Below, in pieces: positions 42,505 to 43,095 of a DNA stretch of 64,000 bases (positions are counted from its first letter, which is position 1; each line of letters begins with the position of its first letter). The notes under the pieces are model-generated. The model searched no databases. It was not told where the DNA came from and saw only the letters and a list, made by a program, of their open reading frames with translations. This DNA is from Chitinophagaceae bacterium (lineage in GTDB: Bacteria > Bacteroidota > Bacteroidia > Chitinophagales > Chitinophagaceae): the NCBI GenBank assembly GCA_947374225.1, contig CANCAY010000010.1, positions 1 to 64,000 on the forward strand, given 5' to 3'. A program made the position numbers and the translations under genes.

Positions 42505-42672
42505 TTAAATAATCAATAAAACAATGGCATAAAAAACTAATAAGCCAATTACAATAAAACTTATTCTCTTAAACTGATTGAAATATTTCTTGATAAAAAT
42601 ATAAATAAACAGATCTAACAAAAGTAGATACAGAATTGTAGTGCCAATAAAAGCGTAGATTAATTCTTTCAT
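42505..42672 (-). CDS. Small hydrophobic (membrane) protein, 55 aa
   Basis: MKELIYAFIGTTILYLLLLDLFIYIFIKKYFNQFKRISFIVIGLLVFYAIVLLII* translated by hand; TAATG overlap with the upstream small ORF. Confidence 0.55.
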   Translation of the reverse strand: MKELIYAFIGTTILYLLLLDLFIYIFIKKYFNQFKRISFIVIGLLVFYAIVLLII

Positions 42673-42866
42673 TATTTACTTTTTAAGTAATCAATCAACC
42701 CCATGATTAATAATAACAGGTAGCTTAAAATGGTAATCGCAATCCCCACTCGGAATAATTTCTTACTTCTTTGAATAGCATCTTTTAATTTAGTTGCATC
42801 ATAAACCCATATAAAAATATTGAACAGAATCAATGTCACGAGAAAGAACAGTAGTAATAGTATCAT
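42672..42866 (-). CDS. Small hydrophobic (membrane) protein, 64 aa
   Basis: Two predicted TM helices (MILLLLFFLVTLILFNIFIWVYD, GIAITILSYLLLLIMGLIDYL). Confidence 0.6.
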   Translation of the reverse strand: MILLLLFFLVTLILFNIFIWVYDATKLKDAIQRSKKLFRVGIAITILSYLLLLIMGLIDYLKSK

Positions 42867-42894
42867 AATTGTTTTTTCATTAGCTTTGTTAAGT

Positions 42895-42980
42895 GATACT
42901 TGGTAAAGCCTCTTATTATTATTTTAATAACGTAACCAAGTAAAAGATTTTAGTCCAGTTTTTAACTGGACTTTTTTTAT
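42895..42980 (+). ncRNA. Candidate small RNA or attenuated leader with its own promoter and terminator
   Basis: TAGCTTTG (42881-42888); 8-bp stem TACTTGGT/ACCAAGTA (42897-42904/42935-42942) enclosing TTATTA-TTT-TAATAA; terminator at 42952-42979. Confidence 0.5.
42952..42979 (+). terminator. Strong intrinsic terminator with no upstream same-strand CDS nearby
   Basis: AGTCCAGTT-TTT-AACTGGACT followed by TTTTTTT. Confidence 0.85.
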
Positions 42981-43095
42981 TCCTACAATTTAACTTCTGA
43001 TTTTCAAATAAATCTTAAACTTAGAATAGGTGCTACGTATTTATTTTTTGTACCTTGTAACTATACTTATGAGATTATTTTCTAAAAACTATTCT

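Follow-up and report, generated by a model that had tools for sequence, protein, structure and literature searches.

The window, i.e., the whole 64,000-nt stretch of Chitinophagaceae contig CANCAY010000010.1 analyzed here, carries a short element that, by analogy with abiF RNA, is probably (at a rough probability of 0.78) an independently terminated antitoxin RNA of ~85 nt from an abiF-like Bacteroidota module with an Abi_2/PD-T4-5-like toxin, the window copy being a retained orphan. The element lies between a small membrane ORF and an M20 peptidase gene, and its features are given in Table 1. An earlier note on this DNA had described it as a possible unannotated small RNA with a promoter box, nested stem-loops and a terminator, or else as a leader of the peptidase gene. 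Inspection bore out the box, the 8-bp outer stem, the strong terminator with its 9-bp stem and T-run, and the minus-strand orientation of the intervening ORFs; the 6-bp inner stem was also present, but the loop that it closes is TTATTT (6 nt) and not TTT. Folding of the element in its sense strand gave -22.9 kcal/mol against a shuffle mean of -11.9 (z = -3.9), and none of 200 dinucleotide shuffles folded as well. Because the opposite strand folded equally well, the strand call rests on the T-run, the box and the homologues.

Table 1. Features of the window RNA, and phage RNAs located directly between tRNA genes.
Feature	Position	Strand	Basis
Promoter -7 box TAGCTTTG, fits TAnnTTTG	42881..42888	+	sequence
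Small-RNA core matched by covariance model R1	42894..42946	+	66.9 bits (window sequence among the nine model sequences)
Stem P1, 8 bp, TACTTGGT with ACCAAGTA	42897-42904 with 42935-42942	+	fold, covariation
Asymmetric internal loop, 5' side AAAGCCTC	42905..42912	+	invariant in nine seed sequences
Variable hairpin P2, TTATTA, loop, TAATAA	42913-42918, 42919-42924, 42925-42930	+	covariation
Internal loop, 3' side CGTA	42931..42934	+	invariant in nine seed sequences
Intrinsic terminator, 9-bp stem (42952-42972), 3-nt loop, T-run to 42978	42952..42978	+	
RNA between same-strand tRNA genes, phage contig L201	5771-5820		
RNA between same-strand tRNA genes, phage contig L200	848-895		
RNA between same-strand tRNA genes, phage contig L191	3229-3276		
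RNA between same-strand tRNA genes, phage contig L183	252-302		
RNA between same-strand tRNA genes, phage contig L250	2707-2757		

The element belongs to a structured, covarying RNA family with a promoter box and a terminator. When 131 bases were compared with 101 genomes by BLASTN, a single match was convincing; it came from a different family within the order and reached 76% over the box, stems and loop. Weaker matches (L011-L023) had neither stems nor core and were set aside as chance. The strings common to the convincing pair were made into a search pattern, which yielded nine genuine members, the window included, from 399 genomes, the remaining hits being rejected. All nine had the stems, the promoter-like box and the terminator. 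When the nine sequences were aligned with MAFFT alone, unfitted to any model, compensatory changes were seen in both stems, and the signal was lost when partner columns were slid. The covariance model R1, together with a pattern scan of named genomes, produced 58 usable copies; two hits from that scan, L127 (within a CDS) and L160 (P1 unpaired), were dropped as chance. Across 56 distinct aligned rows, both stems again covaried, with 93.4% of cells pairing and 104 double changes versus 32 in shuffles. Because this larger alignment is model-fitted and its core strings were set by the search patterns, only the stems and flanks constitute independent evidence. The flanks lay outside R1: in 51 of 58 copies, versus 5.2 expected from shuffles, a TAnnTTT box ended 4-6 nt before the point at which R1 starts, and a terminator, identified by a simple rule, followed the RNA in 56 of 58. 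The family core consists of an invariant UAAAGCCUCUU...AACGUAAC between the two covarying stems. The family is unlisted in Rfam, whose models gave nothing but chance matches (e.g., PrrF) to the window at gathering and permissive thresholds. Distribution of the family was patchy and nearly confined to Bacteroidota (6/396 genomes of the phylum and 5/147 of the genus, with filters that lose weak matches). A full RNA-Abi pair was also present in L132 (JAQTYU010000007.1), a MAG labelled Thiotrichaceae, outside Bacteroidota, through either transfer or misbinning.

In most loci, a ~230-aa ORF was found on the other strand with its start usually 46-75 nt upstream of the RNA core; RNA and toxin would therefore be made divergently. 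A hand tally of 52 genuine genome loci (54 from the named-genome scan minus the chance hits L127 and L160) placed an Abi gene, whole, edge-cut or broken, beside the RNA in 41. The gene was full-length in 25 loci, ran off the end of the retrieved sequence in 4 and was broken or truncated in 12; 10 loci had none and 1 lay at a contig end. In every full-length locus listed, the toxin gene was divergent from the RNA. The partner proteins carry the HEPN motif RN[x3]H, its R and H invariant, and all 22 of 22 matched the PADLOC PD-T4-5 model, whereas Pfam Abi_2 exceeded its cut-off for L067 alone and matched the remaining proteins weakly, below cut-off. The available text of Vassallo et al. (2022; PMC9519451) presents PD-T4-5 as an abortive defence gene distantly related to AbiF/D and as a plasmid-borne single gene, with no mention there of an RNA partner. 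A conjugative plasmid of Bacteroides faecis (L328; NZ_CP081915.1) carried the Abi gene and the divergent RNA together, and a Phocaeicola vulgatus plasmid had a matching Abi gene, its identity equal to that of the B. faecis plasmid gene. R1 found no match beside plasmid-borne toxin relatives from Proteobacteria (two checked) and Riemerella.

Truncated or frameshifted Abi genes stood beside intact RNAs in L113, L116, L120, L124, L128, L135, L139, L146, L147, L152, L155 and L158. Often, the toxin decays and the RNA stays. At the window locus itself, the Abi_2-type HEPN gene is absent, and the partner gene was therefore invisible to the author of the earlier note. Nor was an Abi gene found elsewhere in the window's genome using Pfam Abi_2 and profiles A3 and A5; since the assembly is a 2.46-Mb draft that is 92% complete, Abi could be missing from it. 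Ten other bacterial loci were orphans, and profile A5 located no Abi anywhere in eight of their genomes, among them Chitinophaga sp. E66, whose chromosome is complete; in the other two, Abi was present elsewhere.

Judged by position, the element would suit a conditionally terminated M20 leader or a regulator of the neighbouring membrane ORFs: its terminator precedes the M20 start by ~120 nt, and the divergent small ORFs take the place that Abi usually has. Both readings are very improbable. Homologues of the RNA adjoin Abi. Within the genus, no other locus was found to have one next to M20 or the small ORFs, nor did any homologous locus show one beside M20. In L107, the nearest relative with both neighbours, a different ORF occupied the place of the RNA and no RNA was found, yet the sequence directly upstream of the peptidase gene was retained. 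With both genes present there and no RNA found, the element is taken to be neither a peptidase leader nor tied to the membrane ORFs. The element is an sRNA and not a leader, so the first reading was half right. The membrane ORFs are likewise incidental, since no RNA accompanies their counterparts elsewhere in the genus. These two adjacent ORFs of 55 and 64 aa occupy positions 42505-42866 of the minus strand, and distant relatives of the 64-aa ORF occur here and there in the genus, again unaccompanied by the RNA. In Sediminibacterium ginsengisoli DSM 22335, which shares its genus with the window's genome in the GTDB sense, an intact Abi-RNA pair is located downstream of a homologue of the window's TonB receptor; because the intervening genes differ, we do not claim that this pair and the window RNA are one locus.

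Whether the window copy has a present role is a separate matter. It could be a neutral relic, abiF-like by descent, whose toxin was lost and whose RNA has not yet decayed. Toxin loss is evidently frequent, since the Abi gene next to an intact RNA was broken or truncated in 12/52 loci, and an orphan may be the end stage of such loss, and the window copy has no TTG at -33, at the expected distance from its box. On the other hand, the window RNA has lost neither box nor terminator, its two stems and invariant loop are intact, and its R1 score of 66.9 bits, obtained with a model that includes the window sequence, matches that of Abi-linked copies; moreover, no Abi remnant was detected within the window, and the eight other orphan genomes in which Abi was not found have kept intact RNAs. 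We regard the relic explanation as possible but somewhat doubtful.

AbiF is a relative of Cas13, which is thought to descend from the protein side of abiF-type modules. Like abiF RNA (PMC12373285), the RNA described here is small, has its own terminator and a near-invariant single-stranded loop, and in most of its genome loci, though not in the window, lies beside an Abi_2-type HEPN gene; known examples of abiF RNA include that of RCd22/AbiF of C. difficile and that of the Prevotellaceae PbAbiF complex (8VZ6). The consensus of abiF RNA (RF03085) is P1-AAGCCUCU...GCUCAAAUC-P1', and in both families AAGCCUCU directly follows the 5' strand of P1 (in the window, AAAGCCTCTT), so that the 5' side of the window loop has AAGCCUC(U) in common with the RF03085 consensus. 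The window family differs in its additional variable hairpin P2, in having CGUAAC in place of GCUCAAAUC, and in having one motif copy per RNA versus two in RCd22. Gene order also differs, Abi being divergent in the window family whereas AbiF is downstream of, and co-transcribed with, abiF RNA. RF03085 did not match the window at its gathering threshold (37 bits) or at E<=10, nor did it match 12 homologous loci at E<=5. On the protein side, the ~230-aa toxin belongs to the PD-T4-5 branch, and neither sequence nor fold searches joined it to AbiF: partner profile A3 had no match in the PDB at E<=1, although 8VZ6 was in the library; hhalign gave a probability of 1% for the partner profile against phiC2 AbiF; and Foldseek with the AlphaFold model of the partner (pLDDT 94) had no match at E<=0.001. 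Because neither the profile, hhalign nor Foldseek links the partner to AbiF or 8VZ6, the AbiF analogy spans a distant relationship.

RCd22 neutralizes AbiF by direct binding, in cis and in trans, and requires its stems to do so (PMC12373285); according to a review, bulge nucleotides of AbiFr inhibit PbAbiF (PMC12737573). The RNA folds into stem P1 and the variable hairpin P2, with an invariant internal loop of asymmetric shape (AAAGCCUC/CGUA) between them. By analogy with AbiF and its RNA, this loop, whose 5' side is the putative site of toxin contact, would attach to the dimeric HEPN protein and inhibit its RNase activity. The RNA and Abi most likely form a type III-like toxin-antitoxin module, in which Abi would be the toxic component. 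As in the ToxIN family, an RNA antitoxin would inhibit an RNase toxin by binding it. In contrast to ToxIN and other type III systems, the RNA has no tandem repeats and a single motif, the HEPN toxin is unrelated to ToxN, and the order is divergent instead of RNA followed by toxin in one transcript. The window orphan, which is probably expressed, could neutralize an incoming Abi in trans and may benefit its host in this way.

The RNA might instead serve another protein or target, perhaps a host factor or a HEPN system of another kind, its proximity to Abi being secondary. Orphan and phage copies occur without Abi, the AAGCCUC motif could pair with RNA targets, and three loci without a visible Abi (L075, L134 and L156) adjoin HepT/MntA-like (HEPN-nucleotidyltransferase) pairs, which may be another partner or may merely share islands with the RNA. 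However, two of these three cases come from one genus group and their arrangements differ, the short divergent spacing to Abi is fixed in most loci, and AAGCCUCU is common to the abiF antitoxin RNA. We therefore consider another target improbable and the antitoxin reading preferable.

Copies of the RNA were also found in phages. A pattern scan of IMG/VR produced at least 120 matches, compared to 29 for a reversed control pattern. Among the matches listed, 80 viral loci were readable; P1 paired in 62 of them versus 2 of 29 controls, R1 matched 69 of the 80, and the stems covaried (126 double changes versus 37 in shuffles); the 62 P1-paired loci represented 34 distinct RNAs. A TAnnTTT box was present in 12 of these 62 listed loci, and a same-strand tRNA gene lay within 40 nt in 19. 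Five of the RNAs directly between tRNA genes are given in Table 1; they are situated as if released by tRNA processing, and tRNA-processing enzymes could free the RNA as a decoy. Tenacibaculum jumbo phage pT24 (L323) and the crAss-like phages cr114_1 (L325) and cr125_1 (L326) carried the RNA at 41-55 bits, inside intergenic DNA or bordering on it, and in L195 it was located just upstream of terminase genes. No Abi was detected in the 80 viral loci among the matches listed, over the full length of 20 IMG/VR records (some of them fragments), or in the whole records of pT24, cr114_1 and cr125_1, for which a plasmid control matched. The uncultured 634-kb phage LR745206 had no R1 match. BLASTN matches in phages outside Bacteroidota (Synechococcus, Vibrio, Staphylococcus and others) were not counted; the one checked, S-SKS1, had no R1 match.

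These observations suggest, by analogy with the RNA anti-CRISPRs known as Racrs, that solitary phage copies provide RNA counter-defence and may be regarded as 'anti-Abi RNAs'. We would give about even odds that Bacteroidota phages (crAss-like, jumbo and others) carry them as decoys disarming Abi_2/PD-T4-5 HEPN defence, with orphan chromosomal copies acting likewise against incoming modules. Racrs resemble the phage copies in being a defence system's own RNA, solitary and viral, without the genes of that system (PMC10651486). Racrs mimic CRISPR repeats and are shown inhibitors of Cas, whereas the phage copies would mimic an Abi antitoxin and presumably inhibit Abi; unlike Racrs, many of them adjoin tRNA genes. 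Canonical abiF motifs (AAGCCTCT...GCTCAAATC) were also encountered in viral contigs, where P1 was present in 22 of 80 pattern matches. By a weak search, only one of these 22 loci had an AbiF-like ORF; L343, L350, L352, L355, L358, L374, L394 and others had the motif and P1 with no adjoining AbiF-like ORF. A region of phage sk1 DNA is reported to shield phage 712 against AbiF (title of Rince et al., 2000, as cited in a review), which is a possible precedent. A literature search that left out the majority of subscription journals yielded no paper on such phage RNAs, which leaves priority unestablished.

Taken together, the RNA family, the branch of its partner and the solitary occurrence in phages appear to be new. 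The kind to which they belong, that of RNA antitoxins acting on Abi_2-type HEPN toxins, is known. The results add a probable RNA partner to PD-T4-5, a defence family described as a single gene, extend abiF-type RNA modules to a branch of Bacteroidota that Rfam misses, and reveal solitary copies of the RNA in crAss-like and jumbo phages. If the proposed role is true, the phage copies would represent an RNA-based counter-defence against abortive infection, the toxin-antitoxin counterpart of Racrs.
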